Shown here: positions 27,591 through 34,906 of the stretch, piece by piece
How positions within the stretch are numbered: the stretch's first letter is position 1
Layout: every line of letters begins with the position of its first letter
Assembly (NCBI RefSeq): GCF_002223055.1
Contig: NZ_NKFL01000006.1
Coordinates: 1,426,001 to 1,490,000, forward strand
DNA length: 64,000 nucleotides
Origin: Burkholderia sp. HI2500
GTDB taxonomy: Bacteria; Pseudomonadota; Gammaproteobacteria; Burkholderiales; Burkholderiaceae
Direction of reading: 5' to 3'
Made by a program: the position numbers and the translations under genes
Notes under the pieces: generated by a model
Database searches by the model: none
Told to the model about the DNA's origin: nothing
Seen by the model: only the letters and a program-made list of their open reading frames with translations

Positions 27591-27620
27591 TTGATCGAAT
27601 AAAAAGCACCAAATTACAAT
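27591..27620 (+). promoter_or_regulatory. Sigma-70-like promoter of the phosphonate operon
   Basis: TTGATC (27591-27596), 18-bp spacer, TACAAT (27615-27620), in a local AT-rich patch. Transcription would begin near 27627, giving a leader of only about a dozen nt with no Shine-Dalgarno before the ATG at 27639. Confidence 0.55.
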
Positions 27621-27638: not shown

Positions 27639-28319
27639 ATGGACCAAAGAAAAACCGCCACACGTTCCGAACCGCCCCTGCCGCGCACCTGGGATGCGCG
27701 GCTGGCGCGCTCGCTTGTCCGACCGCTCGTCGACACGCCCGTCACCCCGAATCACCTCACTACCGTTCGCCTGCTGATCGGCCTCGCCGGCGCCTGGTGC
27801 CTCGCGCACGGCGGCTTCGGCTGGAGCAATGCAGGCGCGCTCCTGATCGTGCTGTCGAACTTCGTCGACCACACCGATGGCGAGCTCGCGCGCATCAGCG
27901 GGAAATCCAGCAAGATCGGTCATTTTTACGACCTCGCGGCAGACGCGCTCGTCACGGTCGCGCTGTTCGTCAGCATGGGCGTCGGCATCGTCGCCCAGGG
28001 CGGCCAGATGGCTGCGTCGCCGGTGCTGCTCGGCGCGGTGGCCGGCGCGGCCGTCGCGCTGATCTTCTTCCTGCGCATGCGGATCGAATCGTTCGCCGGC
28101 AAGGCCGGCACCAAGCAGGCATTCGCCGGCGGCTTCGAGACCGAAGACGTGCTGTACCTGCTGCCGCTCGTGACGCTGTTCGACGGCGTCGAGCCGTTCC
28201 TGCTCGCGGCGTCGATCGGCGCCCCGCTGTTCGCGGCGTGGGTCGTGTTCGACTGGTGGCGCATCGTTCGGCGCGGCAACGTTTCGCAGAACCCTACTGA
28301 AATCCAGGCTTCCAAATGA
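27639..28319 (+). CDS. CDP-alcohol phosphatidyltransferase (putative phosphonolipid synthase)
   Basis: A 226-aa membrane enzyme with the complete CDP-alcohol phosphotransferase signature D77-x2-D80-G81-x2-A84-R85-x8-G94-x3-D98-x3-D102 and about six hydrophobic helices. Such enzymes transfer a phospho-head group from a CMP-activated donor to a lipid alcohol. Here the downstream genes make and activate 2-aminoethylphosphonate, so transfer of CMP-AEP to diacylglycerol is the natural prediction (inference). First gene of the operon; its stop overlaps the next start (ATGA). Confidence 0.85.
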   Translation: MDQRKTATRSEPPLPRTWDARLARSLVRPLVDTPVTPNHLTTVRLLIGLAGAWCLAHGGFGWSNAGALLIVLSNFVDHTDGELARISGKSSKIGHFYDLAADALVTVALFVSMGVGIVAQGGQMAASPVLLGAVAGAAVALIFFLRMRIESFAGKAGTKQAFAGGFETEDVLYLLPLVTLFDGVEPFLLAASIGAPLFAAWVVFDWWRIVRRGNVSQNPTEIQASK

Positions 28320-29125
28320 CTCCTAGCACGCGCGACGACTCCGTGCTGAGCCCGGCACGCCCCGCGCCCGTGCGCGCGGCCGCGGCCGACCCCGATCGCA
28401 CCGTGGCCGACCGTGTCGGCCAGCTCGACCTCGACCGCCTGCGCGGCGACTACACGCGCCAGGGCTCGTTCCTTTATCTCGACACCTTCCTGCCGGCCGA
28501 CGCGCACGCGGAACTGGCCGACGCCGCCCGCGCGCTGCAGGCCGGCCTGAACCGCAATTACCTGCCCGGCCACAAGCAGGGCGGCAGCGTCAGCCGTCAT
28601 ACGATCGACGAGCAGGCGCCGTACATCGCCGAGCTGTATCGCTCGAAGGCACTGATCTCGTTCCTCGAGAAAGTCACGGGCGACAAGCTGATGCTGTCGC
28701 CGGACGACGATCCGCACGCATACGCGCTGTATTACTACACGAAGCCCGGCGACCACATCGGCTGGCACTACGACACGTCGTACTACGACGGCCGCCGCTA
28801 CACGCTGCTGATCGGCGTGATCGACGAATCGTCGTGCCGGCTCGACTACGAGCTGCACACACGCAATCCGGACGTAGCCGACGAGCCGGGCTCCGTGCAG
28901 ATCGCCGACGGCGGCATCGTGCTGTTCGACGGCGACAAGCTGCGCCACCGCATCACGCCGCTCGGCCAGAACGAGATGCGCGTGTCGCTCACGTTCGAAT
29001 ACGTGACGAACCCCGGCATGCGGCCGTGGAAGCGCTTCATCTCGAACATGAAGGACGCGATCGCGTATTTCGGTTTCCGCCAGGTGTTCAAGCAACTGGC
29101 GACGCGACGCACGAGCGGGTCATGA
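28316..29125 (+). CDS. 2-oxoglutarate/Fe(II) oxygenase (HalD-like fold)
   Basis: A 269-aa cupin-fold dioxygenase. The iron triad is H151-x-D153 (IGWHYDTSYYDG) and H211 (DKLRHRITPL), with R222 for 2-oxoglutarate. The Asp is present, unlike in 2OG halogenases where it is lost, so hydroxylation is expected. By context the substrate could be AEP, its lipid form, or the acyl/glycerol part. Hydroxylation at AEP C1 is known chemistry for PhnY-type enzymes, but this protein is not obviously PhnY. Overlaps both neighbours by 4 nt (ATGA). Confidence 0.75.
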   Translation: MTPSTRDDSVLSPARPAPVRAAAADPDRTVADRVGQLDLDRLRGDYTRQGSFLYLDTFLPADAHAELADAARALQAGLNRNYLPGHKQGGSVSRHTIDEQAPYIAELYRSKALISFLEKVTGDKLMLSPDDDPHAYALYYYTKPGDHIGWHYDTSYYDGRRYTLLIGVIDESSCRLDYELHTRNPDVADEPGSVQIADGGIVLFDGDKLRHRITPLGQNEMRVSLTFEYVTNPGMRPWKRFISNMKDAIAYFGFRQVFKQLATRRTSGS

Positions 29126-30123
29126 CACGCGCGGGCCTCATCCTGCTGTCCCTCGGGACCGCACTCTTCATCGCACTGCTGGCCTGGCAGGGCGTCGGCG
29201 CCGTGGCGTCCACGTTCCTCGCGGCCGGCTGGGGGCTCGCGCTCGTCGCGGCGTTCCACGTCGTGCCGCTCGCGATCGACGCGGTCGCGATCTCCGTGAT
29301 GTTCCGCCCCGGCCAGCCGGGCGCCGAGCTCGGCAACGCGCTGCGCGCGCGCTGGGTCGGCGAATCGGTGAACAGCCTGCTGCCCGCCGGGCAGATCGGC
29401 GGCCCCGTGCTGATGGTGCGCCACCTCGCGCAGCGCGGCACGCGGATGGCCGACGCGGCGGCAGCCGTCACGGTCAGCACGACGATGCAGGCGCTCGCGC
29501 AGATGGCGTTCGCGCTGATCGGCATCGCCGCGTTCAGCCTGTATGCGACGCACGAATCGGTCGCGCACCTGCGCACGCCCGCGCTGATCGCCACCGGCGT
29601 GCTCGGCGCCCTCGCCGTCGCGTTTTATGCGGCGCAGCGGCGCGGGCTGTTCGGCCGCGGCCTGCGCCTCGCGTCGAAGCTGCTCGGCCCGCGCGACTGG
29701 TCGTCGCTGGCCACCCGAGCCGATGCGATCGACGACGCGGTCGGCGCGCTGTACCGCGATCGTGCGAAGGTCGCGAAGACGTTCGCATTGAGTCTCGTCG
29801 GCTGGATCGTCGGCACCGCCGAAGTGTGGCTCGCGCTGCACTTCCTCGGGCATCCGGTGAGCTGGCTCGACGCGCTGCTGCTCGAGAGCGTCGGCCAGGC
29901 CATTCGTGGCGCGGCCTTCGCGATCCCGGGCTCGCTCGGCGCGCAGGAAGGCGGCTACCTGCTGCTCGCGCCGCTGGTCGGACTGCCGCCCGACGCGGCG
30001 CTCGCGCTGTCGCTTGCGAAACGCGCGCGCGAACTCGCGCTCGGCCTGCCCGGCCTGCTCTATCTGCATTTCAGTGAAAGAAACTGGCAGCGGCGCCGTG
30101 CGCCGCAGCCGCTCGCCGACTGA
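29122..30123 (+). CDS. Lysylphosphatidylglycerol synthase-TM/HpnL-like membrane protein
   Basis: A 333-aa polytopic membrane protein (about 7-8 helices) of the LPG_synthase_TM/UPF0104 type, resembling HpnL. Recognisable segments are RARWVGESVNSLLPAGQIGGPVLMVRHLAQRG and the C-terminal GQAIRGAAFAIPGSLGAQEGGYLLLAPLVGLPPDAALALSLAKRARELALGLPGLL. Relatives are associated with lipid head-group flipping or lipid-linked processes. In this operon it is a candidate flippase for the phosphonolipid. ATG overlaps the oxygenase stop. Confidence 0.75.
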   Translation: MTRAGLILLSLGTALFIALLAWQGVGAVASTFLAAGWGLALVAAFHVVPLAIDAVAISVMFRPGQPGAELGNALRARWVGESVNSLLPAGQIGGPVLMVRHLAQRGTRMADAAAAVTVSTTMQALAQMAFALIGIAAFSLYATHESVAHLRTPALIATGVLGALAVAFYAAQRRGLFGRGLRLASKLLGPRDWSSLATRADAIDDAVGALYRDRAKVAKTFALSLVGWIVGTAEVWLALHFLGHPVSWLDALLLESVGQAIRGAAFAIPGSLGAQEGGYLLLAPLVGLPPDAALALSLAKRARELALGLPGLLYLHFSERNWQRRRAPQPLAD

Positions 30124-30159
30124 TCGTTCAGATCCGCCGGCTTTTTGGTTGGAGAACCC

Positions 30160-30927
30160 ATGCGAGCCATCATTCTTGCGGCAGGCCTCGGCTTGCGCCT
30201 GCAACAACCGCCCGAGGCGCAGTTCCCGAAGTGCCTGCTGCGCTTCGACGACGTGTCGCTGCTCGAGCGCCATCTGCGCGTACTCGATGCCGCGGGCGTC
30301 GACGAGATCGTGCTCGGGCTGGGCTTCCAGCACGAGAAGGTCGAGCAGGAATTGAAGCGTCTCGGCCGCCAGGCCGAGATCGTGATCAACGACCGCTACG
30401 ACCTCGGCAGCGTGCTGACCGTGCATACCGTCGCCGAGGCGATGACGCGCGGCGGCGACGTGCTGCTGATGGACGCCGACGTGCTGTATGACGAGAACAT
30501 CCTGCACGCGCTGGTGGCCGATTCCGACAAGGCGGTCGACCGCCTGCTGATCGATCGCGACTTCGAGGCCGGCGACGAGCCCGTCAAGCTGTGCCTGAAG
30601 AACGGCGTGCCGGTCGAGCTGCGCAAGCAGCTCGCAGTCGACCTCGACTACGACACGATCGGCGAATCGGTCGGCTTCTTCCGCTTCACCGAAGGCACCG
30701 CGCGCCGCCTCGCGACGATCGTCGCGGGCTACGTCGACAGCGGCCGCGCGAACATGCCGCACGAAGAAGCCGTGCGCGACCTGCTGCTCGAAGGCGGTCA
30801 TTCGTTCGACGTCGCCGACGTCACCGGCTCGCCGTGGATCGAGATCGACTTCCCGAACGACGTCGCGCGCGCCACGCAAGAAATCCTCCCCCTGATTCAA
30901 CGTACTACCGCAGGAGCTGCACGATGA
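30160..30927 (+). CDS. Nucleotidyltransferase (MobA/GlmU-like), putative phosphonate cytidylyltransferase
   Basis: A 255-aa NTP transferase-fold protein. The N-terminal signature [13 protein letters not shown]...FPKCLLRF is intact (the GxGxR loop and Lys of the PKxL motif). The metal Asp is in [14 protein letters not shown] and the second acidic site in [15 protein letters not shown]. In phosphonate clusters such proteins (PntC-like) activate AEP with CTP. Start chosen for GGAGAACCCATG; a longer in-frame start at 30145 is less likely. Stop overlaps the next ATG. Confidence 0.78.
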
Positions 30928-32609
30928 ATGCACGCGAACCCAACTTCTCCGAATCGCGCAGCGCACGCCTGCGCCGCATGCTCGTCAGCAACGAACTCGA
31001 ATTCCTGATGGAAGCGCACAACGGCCTGTCCGCGCGGATCGTCCGCGAAGCCGGCTTCAAGGGGATCTGGGCATCGGGCCTCGCGATCTCCGCGCAGTTC
31101 GGCGTGCGTGACAACAACGAGGCGAGCTGGACCCAGGTCGTCGACGTGCTCGAATTCATGGCCGACGCGAGCGACCTGCCGATCCTGCTCGACGGCGACA
31201 CCGGCTACGGCAACTTCAACAACGTGCGCCGCCTCGTGAAGAAGCTCGAGCAGCGCGGCATCGCGGGCGTCTGCATCGAAGACAAACAGTTTCCGAAGAC
31301 CAACAGCTTCATCGGCGGCGAGCGCCAGCCGCTCGCGGAAATCGACGAGTTCTGCGGCAAGATCAAGGCCGGCAAGGATTCGCAGACCGATCCCGACTTC
31401 TCGATCGTCGCGCGCGTCGAAGCGCTGATCGCGGGCTGGGGGATGGACGAGGCGCTGCGCCGCGCGAACGCATATGCGGAAGCCGGTGCGGACGCGATCC
31501 TGATCCACAGCAAGCTGTCGCGCCCGGACGAGATCCTGCAGTTCGCGCGCGAATGGAGCGGCAAGGCGCCGCTCGTGATCGTGCCGACCAAGTACTACAG
31601 CACGCCGACCGACGTGTTCCGCCAGGCCGGCATCAGCACCGTGATCTGGGCGAACCACCTGATCCGCGCGTCGGCATCCGCGATGCAGGCAACCGCACGC
31701 GAGATCCACGAGAGCGAAACGCTGATCAACGTCGAAGACCGCGTTGCATCGGTCAACGAAATCTTCCGCCTGCAGGACGCCGACGAATATTCGGCGGCCG
31801 AGCGCATCTACCTGTCGTCGTCGTCGCGCGCGTCGAACGCCGCGATCGTGCTGGCGGCCAGCCGCGGCAAGGGCCTCGAAGCCGTGACCGAAGACAAGCC
31901 GAAGGTCATGCTGCCGGTCGCCGGCAAGCCGCTGCTGCGCTGGCTCGTCGACGGCTTCAAGACGCACGGCGTGAACGACATCACCGTGGTCGGCGGCTAT
32001 CGTGCCGACGCGATCGACACGTCGGGCATCAAGCTCGTCGTCAACGAACGCCATGCACAGACGGGCGAACTCGCGTCGCTCGCCTGCGCGGCCGACCGCC
32101 TGACCGGCGACACCGTGATCTCGTACGGCGACCTGCTGTTCCGCAGCTACATCGTGCGCGACCTCGCGGAGAGCGAGGCCGAGTTCAGCGTGGTGGTCGA
32201 TTCGTCGCTCACCGAAACCAACCAGAGCGTGCGCGACTTCGCACTCTGCTCGGCTGAAGACGATCGCGGCCTGTTCGGCCAGAAGACGTACCTGCAACGC
32301 GTATCGAGCGACGTCGCCGCAGGCACGCCGCACGGCCGCTGGATCGGCCTGCTGAACGTGCGCGGCGCCGGTGTCGACCGCCTGAAGGCCATGCTCGCGA
32401 CGCTGCAGGCGCGTCCTGATTTCGACACGCTCGACATCCCGTCGCTGCTCAACGAACTGATCGCCGCCGGCGAGAAGATCGAGGTGCAATACGTGCACGG
32501 CCACTGGCGCGGCGTCAACGATCTCGAGGACTTCCGCCGCGCGGGCGACTTCGCGCACGGCCAGACGCCGCTGTCCGAACCGGGTGCCGGCAACGGGGGC
32601 GCGCAATGA
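30924..32609 (+). CDS. pepM: Phosphoenolpyruvate mutase fused to nucleotidyltransferase
   Basis: A 561-aa bifunctional protein. Residues 1-295 are a PEP phosphomutase (ICL/PEPM superfamily) with the diagnostic [10 protein letters not shown] at 119-128 (EDKxxxKxNS) and DGDTGYGN at 90-97, making phosphonopyruvate from PEP and so the committing C-P bond step. Residues about 305-550 are a second nucleotidyltransferase domain. Its signature loop reads LAASRGKGL (310-318) where the stand-alone NTase has LAAGLGLRL, followed by the usual [11 protein letters not shown]. Possible reduced or altered nucleotide use. ATGA overlaps at both ends. Confidence 0.92.
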
Positions 32610-33787
32610 TCGAAGCGGCCCAGTTCGTCGAGGCCGCGCGCGAGCGCGGTTTCGACTGGTACGCGGGCGTGCCCTGCTCGTACCTGACGCCGTTCATCAA
32701 TTACGTGCTGCAGGACCCGACGCTGAATTACGTGTCGGCCGCGAACGAAGGCGACGCGGTCGCGCTGATCGCGGGCGCGACGCTCGGCGGCAAGCGCGGG
32801 ATCGCGATGATGCAGAACTCGGGGCTCGGCAACGCGGTGAGCCCGCTCACGTCGCTTACGTGGACGTTCCGCCTGCCGCAGCTGCTGATCGTCACGTGGC
32901 GCGGCCAGCCGGGCGTGGCCGACGAGCCGCAGCACGCGCTGATGGGCCCGATCACGCCCGCGATGCTCGACACGATGGAGATCCCGTGGGAGACGTTCCC
33001 GACCGACCCCGAACAGGTCGGCCCGGCACTCGACCGCGCGATCGCGCACATGGACGCGACGGGCCGCCCGTACGCGCTCGTGATGCAGAAAGGCAGCGTC
33101 GCGCCGTATGAGCTGAAATCGAACCCGGCCGCGAAGCCGCGTGCGCATGTCGCCGCGCAAGCGTCGTCGCGCGCTGCGTCGGCCGAAGCCTGGCCGACCC
33201 GCCAGGACGCGCTGCAGCGCGTGATCGCGCACACGCCGGTCGATTCGACCGTCGTGCTCGCGTCGACCGGCTTCTGCGGCCGCGAACTCTACGCAATCGA
33301 CGATCGCCCGAACCAGCTGTACATGGTCGGCTCGATGGGCTGCGTCACGCCGATGGCGCTCGGTCTCGCGCTCGCACGCCCCGACCTGCGCGTGGTCGCG
33401 GTCGACGGCGACGGCGCCGCGCTGATGCGCATGGGCGTGTTCGCGACGCTCGGCACCTACGGCCCGGCCAACCTCACGCACGTGCTGCTCGACAACGGCG
33501 CGCACGAATCGACGGGTGGCCAGGCCACCGTGTCGCAACATGTTTCGTTCGCGGGCGTGGCTGCCGCGTGCGGGTATGCGTCGGCGGTCGAAGGCGATAC
33601 GCTGGATGTGCTCGATACGGCGCTTGCTTCGTCGGCCGATGGTGCGCAGTTCGTGCGACTGGCAATCCGCACCGGCGTGCCCGACGGCCTGCCCCGCCCG
33701 ACCGTCACGCCGGTCGAGGTCAAGACCCGTCTGATGCGGCACATCGGCGCCGCACAGACCGAAGCCCACGTTGAAGGAGCCCATTGA
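32606..33787 (+). CDS. ppd: Phosphonopyruvate decarboxylase
   Basis: A 393-aa ThDP-dependent decarboxylase that converts phosphonopyruvate to phosphonoacetaldehyde, pulling the unfavourable mutase reaction forward. The N-terminal PYR domain has [43 protein letters not shown] (Glu of the PYR domain in NEGDA). The C-terminal PP domain has the GDG motif in [15 protein letters not shown] and [15 protein letters not shown] low-complexity linker lies near 175-195. Overlaps pepM by 4 nt and phnW by 1 nt (TGATG). Confidence 0.93.
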
Positions 33788-34851
33788 TGCTGCTGCTGAA
33801 CCCCGGCCCGGTCACGCTCACCGAACGCGTGCGCCGCAGCCTGCTGCAACCCGACCTGTGCCATCGCGAAAGCGAATTCTTCGATCTGCAGGATGAGGCG
33901 CGTGCGCGGCTCGTTGCTGCGTATGAGCTTGATCCGGCTGAGTGGACGGCCGTGCTGATGACCGGTTCGGGTACGGCCGCTGTCGAAAGCATGATCGCGG
34001 CGCTCGTGCCGAAGGACGGCAAGCTGCTCGTGATCGAGAACGGTGTTTATGGCGAGCGGATCACGCAGATCGCGACGCAGTATGGGATCGCGCATGATGT
34101 GCTCAAGCATGAGTGGATGCAGGCGCCGGATCTTGCGCAGATTGGTGCGAAGCTCGATGCGGGTGGTTACTCGCACGTCGCCGTGATCCATCACGAAACC
34201 ACGACGGGCCGCCTGAACGACCTCGGCGCGATCGCGGAAGTCTGCCGCTCGCGCGGCGTGAAGATGCTCGTTGATGGTGTGAGCAGCTTTGGGGCGGAAG
34301 CGATCGATTTTGCCGGTGGTGATATCGATGCTGTGGCTGCGACCGCGAACAAATGCCTGCATGGTGTGCCGGGCGCAGCGTTCGTGATCGTGCGTCGCAG
34401 TGCGCTCGCGAAGGCCTCAAGCCGTACTTACTACCTCGATCTCGGTCGTCTCGCGAAGCTGCAGGACCAGCGCAATACGCCGTTCACGCCTTCCGTGCAT
34501 GCGTATTACGCGCTCGTCGAGGCGCTGCGCGAGTTTGCCGAAGCCGGCGGCTGGCGTGCGCGGCATGCGCATTACAAGGCGCTCGCCGATCAGGCGCAAG
34601 CCGGGCTTGCGGCGCGCGGAATGCCGCTGGTGTTGCCGGAAGGTGAATCGTCGGTCGTGCTGCGTGCGTACCGGTTGCCGCAAGGTGTGACGTACGAAAC
34701 GCTGCATGACGGGCTGAAGGCTCGCGGCTTCGTGATCTATGCGGGGCAAGGCGGGCTGTCGAAAGAACTGTTCCGTATCTCGACGATGGGCGCGATTCAG
34801 GCGGCTGATGTTGAGCGGTTGCTGGAGGGGTTTACGGCACTGACGCGGTAA
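33787..34851 (+). CDS. phnW: 2-aminoethylphosphonate-pyruvate transaminase
   Basis: A 354-aa fold-type I PLP transaminase. LLNPGPVTLTERVRRSLL opens the protein; D163 (LVDGVSSFGA) and the Schiff-base K189 (ATANKCLHGVPG) are in place. It interconverts phosphonoacetaldehyde plus alanine with AEP plus pyruvate. Behind pepM and ppd it should run toward AEP synthesis rather than degradation; no PhnX hydrolase is nearby. Start ATG 33787 gives TGATG coupling to ppd. Large parts use many T-ending codons (GCT, GTT, GAT, GGT), unlike the neighbours. A strong terminator follows. Confidence 0.93.
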   Translation: MLLLNPGPVTLTERVRRSLLQPDLCHRESEFFDLQDEARARLVAAYELDPAEWTAVLMTGSGTAAVESMIAALVPKDGKLLVIENGVYGERITQIATQYGIAHDVLKHEWMQAPDLAQIGAKLDAGGYSHVAVIHHETTTGRLNDLGAIAEVCRSRGVKMLVDGVSSFGAEAIDFAGGDIDAVAATANKCLHGVPGAAFVIVRRSALAKASSRTYYLDLGRLAKLQDQRNTPFTPSVHAYYALVEALREFAEAGGWRARHAHYKALADQAQAGLAARGMPLVLPEGESSVVLRAYRLPQGVTYETLHDGLKARGFVIYAGQGGLSKELFRISTMGAIQAADVERLLEGFTALTR

Positions 34852-34874
34852 GCGTTATCCGCACCTCATCTACG

Positions 34875-34906
34875 AAAGGCCCGGGCAATGCTCCCGGGCC
34901 TTTTTT
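34875..34906 (+). terminator. Intrinsic terminator of the phosphonate operon
   Basis: Eleven-bp stem AAAGGCCCGGG/CCCGGGCCTTT with a 7-nt loop, ending in six T, 24 nt after the phnW stop. Confidence 0.92.

Follow-up and report, generated by a model that had tools for sequence, protein, structure and literature searches.

Hopanoids are bacterial sterol surrogates, the counterpart of cholesterol, and serve widely as molecular fossils; where they sit and what they do depends in part on their head groups. The hpnI, hpnJ, hpnK and hpnL genes put a polar group onto bacteriohopanepolyol, with HpnL encoded together with the enzymes. On the phosphonate side, the closest described systems are the pnt clusters with PntC of Treponema denticola and Atopobium rimae. 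According to passages of PMC6697681, the assayed enzymes Ari1348 and Tde1415 favour 2-aminoethylphosphonate (AEP), some clusters have a nucleotidyltransferase (NTase) fused to PepM plus a separate NTase, and PntC is linked to the tailoring of surface glycans and lipids. Here we analysed a seven-gene operon (27639..34851, all genes on the + strand) in 64,000 nucleotides of Burkholderia sp. HI2500 DNA (NZ_NKFL01000006.1, positions 1,426,001 to 1,490,000; hereafter the window). It encodes, in order, a CDP-alcohol phosphotransferase (g1), a 2-oxoglutarate (2OG)/Fe(II) oxygenase (g2), HpnL (g3), an NTase (g4), a PepM-NTase fusion (g5), Ppd (g6) and PhnW/AepZ (g7). With the pnt clusters, as described in those passages, it shares the PepM-Ppd-AEP transaminase set, the PepM-fused NTase and the separate PntC-like NTase, with CMP-AEP as the expected intermediate; with hpnI-hpnL it shares the pairing of head-group enzymes and HpnL. 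It departs from the pnt clusters in that the enzyme that follows is a CDP-alcohol transferase, coupled with a 2OG hydroxylase and with HpnL, and in its hopanoid linkage. Unlike the sugar head of the hpnI-hpnL pathway, its head group would be AEP, delivered through CMP activation.

We propose, with a probability of about 0.6, that the operon makes a phosphonohopanoid, by transfer of CMP-AEP to a bacteriohopanepolyol, hydroxylation and handling by HpnL. PepM, Ppd and PhnW/AepZ would convert phosphoenolpyruvate (PEP) into AEP, and the PntC-like g4, perhaps with the PepM-fused NTase domain, would convert AEP into CMP-AEP. What the sequences show directly is the content, order, fusion, co-occurrence and linkage of the genes; every chemical step after AEP we infer. 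Judged from its neighbours, g1 would place the AEP group on a hydroxyl of a C35 bacteriohopanepolyol, for instance bacteriohopanetetrol; g2, together with g1, would hydroxylate either the AEP or the hopanoid side chain; and g3, judged from its family, would flip the product or hand it on. The expected bacteriohopanetetrol-AEP has an [M+H]+ of 654.4857, or 670.4806 with one extra oxygen.

Conservation of the operon and its hopanoid neighbours

Of 65 genomes of the genus, 64 carried the oxygenase gene g2; across the Burkholderiaceae it was detected in 243 of the 398 genomes sampled, from 11 of 25 genera. Among the named loci (the best 80 of 371, from Burkholderia, Cupriavidus, Paraburkholderia and kin; the loci are not independent, as several named and unnamed ones come from the same genomes), 47 had all seven genes in the same order, 31 had g1-g4 only and 2 ended at a contig edge. 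The full order was also found in all 13 loci (L132-L144) from 8 further genera of the family, so this order is not due to chance. A preliminary description of the stretch, made by a model from the sequence, had described a linked seven-gene operon and proposed comparing its order across Burkholderia genomes; the comparison agrees with that description. A phylum-level search (289 genomes) recovered g2 in 3 genomes, all of the same family, and a class-level search (369 genomes) recovered it in 6 genomes outside the family. G702 and G507 had remote g2 homologues; the rest of the operon was missing from their loci, and squalene-hopene cyclase (SHC) from their genomes. We also noted a g2 homologue (P0117, 64% identical) that is recorded as fungal (Auriculariales sp.), on a 758-kb contig, and probably derives from a bacterial partner or contaminant.

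In 4 genomes outside the family, operon genes were found in another setting (loci L173-L176). L174 comprises a squalene-synthase-like gene, an HpnG-like gene, g1, HpnA, g2, g4, g5, g6, g7 and DXS. L175 comprises HpnN, g1, HpnA, an HpnL-like gene on the other strand, g2, g4, g5, g6 and g7, and its g1 overlaps both adjoining genes, HpnN and HpnA, by 4 nt each. L173 starts with SHC, an HpnG-like gene, a further oxygenase, HpnN, g1, HpnA and an HpnL-like gene on the other strand, followed by a second CDP-alcohol transferase, g2, g4, g5, g6, g7 and DXS (the HpnG-like gene, the further oxygenase and the second transferase were named by eye). L176 is cut by a contig edge, either inside g5 or after it, and its hopanoid-type neighbour is the HpnL-like gene only. 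The g3 gene itself was absent from all four loci, with an HpnL-like gene in its stead in three. Scores in these loci were 488-519 for HpnA (cut-off 368), 999 and 1024 for HpnN (cut-off 752) and 898 and 909 for DXS (cut-off 466), while the SHC piece of L173, cut by the end of the stretch, reached 428 of 431. SHC was above its cut-off in all four genomes, and HpnH adjoined DXS in G781 and G530. The second CDP-alcohol transferase and the further oxygenase of L173, the latter PhyH-like by eye, are those at L173:9905-10672 and L173:16968-18014.

Within the family, the fetched stretches of the 13 full loci contained HpnN in 6 cases (L132, L133, L134, L137, L138, L144) and DXS in 4 (L134, L139, L140, L144); one or both were found in 8 of the 13 loci, from 5 of the 8 genera. 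The four HpnN and DXS proteins scanned from these loci were all above the cut-offs, and in three genomes (G079, G108, G123) the distance between HpnH and the operon was about 7 to 9 kb. In a tree of g2, midpoint-rooted and with long outer branches, a branch supported at 100/100 had the four outside sequences on one side, and the 20 rows that lack hopanoid neighbours grouped together, with support (100/98), inside the family. With this rooting, the hopanoid linkage looks like the older condition, which was lost later.

SHC (threshold E <= 1e-60) was detected in 290 of the 398 family genomes and in 242 of the 243 g2 carriers. Only one of the 108 genomes without SHC carried g2, namely G381, a 680-contig assembly in which HpnH runs off a contig end and a search relaxed to 1e-10 still gave no SHC; its SHC may be unassembled. 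HpnH was above its cut-off in 12 of 12 chosen genomes, that of the window included. The genome of the window has two other HpnL genes, one in an HpnI-J-K-L run (L120) and one beside another HpnI, so that both adjoin enzymes that give hopanoids a polar head; the second HpnI-HpnL pair (L121:6337-8651) suggests another hopanoid glycolipid. Finally, SHC was present and g2 absent in G091 and G121 (1.2 Mb only, genus labelled g8).

Enzymes and borders of the operon

The synthesis of AEP from PEP by g5-g7 is secure at the level of family assignment, as the preliminary description had claimed: PepM, Ppd and PhnW/AepZ (TIGR03301) all exceed curated family cut-offs, and each of the 14 operon proteins aligned carries the PepM motif EDKxxxxxNS. 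Against the separate, catabolic-type model TIGR02326 (transamin_PhnW), g7 scored 268 of 401 bits and did not reach the cut-off. A catabolic role of the kind assigned to the PepM/PhnW/Ppd association of B. xenovorans in parts of PMC2776528 was rejected, because PepM is the enzyme that makes the C-P bond and because an NTase is fused to it here. This fused domain, which the preliminary description had overlooked, matches PF12804 over about residues 307-424 of g5, with PK, GD and ND positions invariant in 14 of 14 sequences; the operon thus holds two nucleotidyltransferases.

For g4, the proposal of CMP activation by a PntC-type NTase agrees with both sequence and fold. By sequence (phmmer), g4 was closer to Tde-PntC (3.6e-11) than to LicC (1.8e-7). 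Its model (mean predicted local distance difference test, pLDDT, 78.6) had the PntC-AEPT fusion 6pd2 as best Foldseek match (4.3e-16, template modelling score 0.83), followed by the inositol-phosphate enzyme IPCT-DIPPS (1.1e-13) and the phosphocholine cytidylyltransferase LicC (9.6e-13). At the AEP-amine residues of Tde-PntC, an invariant D105 takes the position of Glu104, and E202 was matched to Glu196 by eye only, as the HMMER alignment is shifted there. The top NCBIfam model for g4 was an inositol-phosphate cytidylyltransferase (63.7 of the 580 cut-off); this assignment is weakened because PntC is closer in both sequence and fold. At the level of fold, there is thus support for g4 as the enzyme that forms CMP-AEP, possibly together with the PepM-fused NTase domain.

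The nearest solved structure to g1 was AF2299. CDP-alcohol phosphotransferases carry the motif DxxDGxxARx8GxxxDxxxD, which is contained in the g1 translation. AF2299, IPCT-DIPPS and PIP synthase share fold and motif with g1, but their substrates differ, and g1 lies far under the cut-offs of characterised equivalogs. Of the 145 loci with both g1 and g2, 23 had the two joined in a single unbroken frame, about 500 residues long (22 in the genus labelled g11 and 1 in the genus labelled g7), and public proteins, one of them named Pandoraea pulmonicola, also have precomputed PF01066 and PF23169 in one chain. When the fusion was modelled with AlphaFold (mean pLDDT 81.8), the g2 part matched HalD and HalB and the g1 part AF2299; the predicted TM score of the model was 0.51, so the placing of the domains was not interpreted. 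The fusion shows that the two proteins are partners.

The g2 protein shares its fold and N-terminal half with the HalD/BesD amino-acid halogenases and hydroxylases. HalD, BesD and HalB have HxG as iron-ligand motif, whereas g2 has HxD...H; all 14 sequences aligned read HxD, as did 8 of 8 rows of a wider set, and H151, D153, H211 and R222 were invariant in the 14. On the basis of the HxD motif a halogenase was rejected and the public name is doubtful, so that g2 is expected to be a hydroxylase-type oxygenase, in line with the preliminary description. NCBI and UniRef label g2 and its homologues 'HalD/BesD family halogenase', and many of these records may have the wrong function.

The features of the operon are listed in the table below. 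Five of its 6 junctions are 4-nt overlaps and the sixth, g3/g4, is a 36-nt gap; the preliminary description had counted six coupled junctions out of seven, and overlaps or gaps under 40 nt in fact apply to 6 of 6. It had also described one promoter-like element and one terminator. A promoter-like match was located, with its 3' end 18 nt ahead of the g1 ATG, and promoter-like sites in the region numbered 4 against 0.8 in shuffles. A terminator-like hairpin was located as well, but terminator-like sites as a class numbered 6 against 5.3 in shuffles, and the scan by itself is not significant. For g7, an ATG at 33787 is as likely a start as the listed TTG.

Features of the operon, with positions in the window
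Feature	Position	Strand	Basis
Promoter-like match (TTGATC, 18 nt, TACAAT)	27591..27620	+	Consensus match only
g1, CDP-alcohol phosphotransferase, proposed CMP-AEP:hopanoid transferase	27639..28319	+	PF01066, 54 bits (cut-off 22)
g2, 2OG/Fe(II) oxygenase, HalD/BesD fold, proposed hydroxylase	28316..29125	+	PF23169, 50.8 bits (cut-off 26)
g3, HpnL membrane protein, flippase-like	29122..30123	+	TIGR03476, 374 bits (cut-off 195.65)
g4, nucleotidyltransferase, PntC-like	30160..30927	+	Tde-PntC nearest solved (phmmer, Foldseek)
g5, PepM fused to second NTP_transf_3 domain	30924..32609	+	TIGR02320, 407 bits (cut-off 320); PF12804
g6, phosphonopyruvate decarboxylase Ppd	32606..33787	+	TIGR03297, 487 bits (cut-off 312.5)
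g7, AEP aminotransferase PhnW/AepZ	33784..34851	+	TIGR03301, 399 bits (cut-off 361)
Terminator-like hairpin, 12 pairs, T run after	34874..34904	+	Terminator scan

Separation of the two halves and alternative readings

The 31 loci with g1-g4 only comprised 30 named Paraburkholderia and Burkholderia sp. WSM2232. PepM was found elsewhere, above its cut-off, in 28 of the 30 searchable split genomes (L076 was left out) and was not found in the other two, P. monticola and P. phosphatilytica; it was present in 8 of 8 Burkholderia/Cupriavidus-type genomes searched alongside. Nine of the 10 PepM regions fetched from split genomes had g5-g6-g7 together, and the tenth (L129) held the second PepM of its genome, 36% identical. 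The preliminary description had called the operon a self-contained unit, which holds only in part: g1-g4 stand alone in the 31 split loci, although most of their genomes keep PepM elsewhere. In two Paraburkholderia-type genomes, a copy of g4 stands directly ahead of PepM besides the g1-g4 locus (L128:350-1090, L131:8461-9201), an apparent trace or intermediate of the operon split. Replacement head-group genes were also considered, and no head-group-like pathway was seen beside g1-g4 in 7 of the 31 split loci, inspected by eye only and with no family scan; a major facilitator superfamily-type gene was next to g1-g4 in 6 of these 7.

Over the 398 family genomes (PepM threshold E <= 1e-80), 236 had both g2 and PepM, 7 had g2 alone, 5 had PepM alone and 150 had neither, so the two agree in 386 genomes (Fisher 1.8e-93, not corrected for ancestry). 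Among genomes with g2 and no PepM, G194 had partial g1, g2 and g4 and no g3 match, and G220 had stop codons in g2; because of these defects, both halves appear to have decayed there. G302 had two separate g2 matches.

Several observations weigh against a phosphonohopanoid. The eight hopanoid/isoprenoid queries gave no match near the operon in the 80 named loci, and none in L135, L136, L141-L143 or the window. Outside the family, the HpnL-like genes of L173, L175 and L176 (140-149 bits) are below the HpnL cut-off of 196, and in L174 the HpnG-like (153 of 187) and squalene-synthase-like (107 of 287) genes are below theirs. The acceptor is not readable from the g1 sequence. SHC occurs without g2 in 48 genomes, and the SHC test has little power alone because SHC is common (290 of 398) and ancestry is uncorrected; since most larger sampled genomes have SHC anyway, it is adjacency that carries the argument. 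Finally, g2 is kept without PepM in 7 of the 398 genomes (2 with decayed g2) and in 2 of the 30 Paraburkholderia, with no defect listed for G125, G258, G277 and G336, which counts against strict coupling; g1-g4 may therefore use another substrate or import AEP.

According to the preliminary description, AEP or hydroxy-AEP would be placed on diacylglycerol and the glycerophosphonolipid flipped by HpnL. Hopanoid genes would, on such a reading, be neighbours only because both products are membrane lipids. We regard this as unlikely, though deserving of serious attention. It suits the CDP-alcohol phosphatidyltransferase family of g1, whose best-known members act on glycerolipids, and the lack of hopanoid neighbours in the 80 named loci and the window; however, the operon is embedded among hopanoid genes outside the family and flanked by HpnN or DXS in 5 genera, g3 is HpnL and not a general flippase, and SHC is found in 242 of 243 g2 carriers although diacylglycerol is universal. 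Context in other families and genera, together with the SHC co-occurrence, thus points away from a diacylglyceryl acceptor and toward a hopanoid, at odds of about two to one. The other claim of that description, that the product is a membrane lipid and not a secreted phosphonate, is probably right, because a CDP-alcohol transferase and HpnL are both in the operon. A secreted flavophos-type phosphonate was set aside, as the cluster described in parts of PMC12871164 is a different, six-gene Burkholderia cluster.

The operon genes g1-g4 could instead be a module for another CMP/CDP-activated head group, such as phosphoethanolamine or inositol phosphate, with the AEP genes separate and merely co-transcribed. 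The 31 named loci with g1-g4 alone, the genomes with g2 and no PepM and the first rank of the IPCT model for g4, far under its cut-off, would fit such a module, but PepM is kept elsewhere in 28 of 30 split genomes, 386 of the 398 genomes have g2 and PepM either both present or both absent, no solved structure is nearer to g4 than PntC, and g4 copies directly precede PepM in L128 and L131; we consider it highly improbable. Slightly more improbable still is a transfer of AEP onto a polyprenyl carrier or a glycan of the cell surface, the route put forward for other pnt clusters: the role of PntC in surface glycan and lipid tailoring (passages of PMC6697681) would agree with it, and DXS beside the operon would suit a polyprenyl carrier too, but there is no glycosyltransferase, LicD-type transferase or polymerase among the seven genes, and HpnN, HpnA, HpnH and SHC are hopanoid genes.

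Relation to earlier reports and significance

A link between terpenes and phosphonates is already in print. In the parts of the source available, PMC8776678 reports a hopene cyclase gene linked to a PEP mutase gene in several Roseomonas (Acetobacteraceae) and suggests an 'undiscovered terpene-phosphonate', and available parts of PMC5987411 (Pandoraea) and PMC7285500 (Nitrosococcus oceani) contain automatic 'phosphonate-terpene' cluster calls. These clusters resemble the present one in linking PepM to terpene or hopene cyclase genes. In the same parts, the surveys give cluster calls and a guess at the product; our gene-level comparison is limited to Pandoraea (L137, L144). No description of phosphonate hopanoid chemistry was found in open-access titles and abstracts, where these three reports were the only ones found with related statements; the gene set, its split, the fusion and the hopanoid embedding were not met in the open-access literature searched. 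As far as the available parts go, PMC8931226 finds that Burkholderiaceae are almost half of those genomes in its set that have traits for producing as well as for consuming phosphonates, PMC5472815 includes a phosphonate cluster alongside hopanoid ones for B. ubonensis-type strains with no link drawn, and PMC12583986, a 2025 survey, describes the functions of hpnA, hpnB and hpnL as not established.

Burkholderiaceae and several other proteobacterial families would, somewhat more probably than otherwise, make bacteriohopanepolyols carrying hydroxylated AEP by a dedicated transferase-hydroxylase pair, with the product moved by HpnL. If this is true, it would add a new hopanoid class, a membrane lipid still awaiting isolation, and HpnL would gain a substrate. 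The phosphonate head group would be zwitterionic and phosphatase-resistant, and might escape standard hopanoid analysis. The near-universal presence of PepM in sampled Burkholderia would be explained, HpnL and perhaps HpnA would have testable roles, and the C-P cycle would be tied to hopanoid biology.

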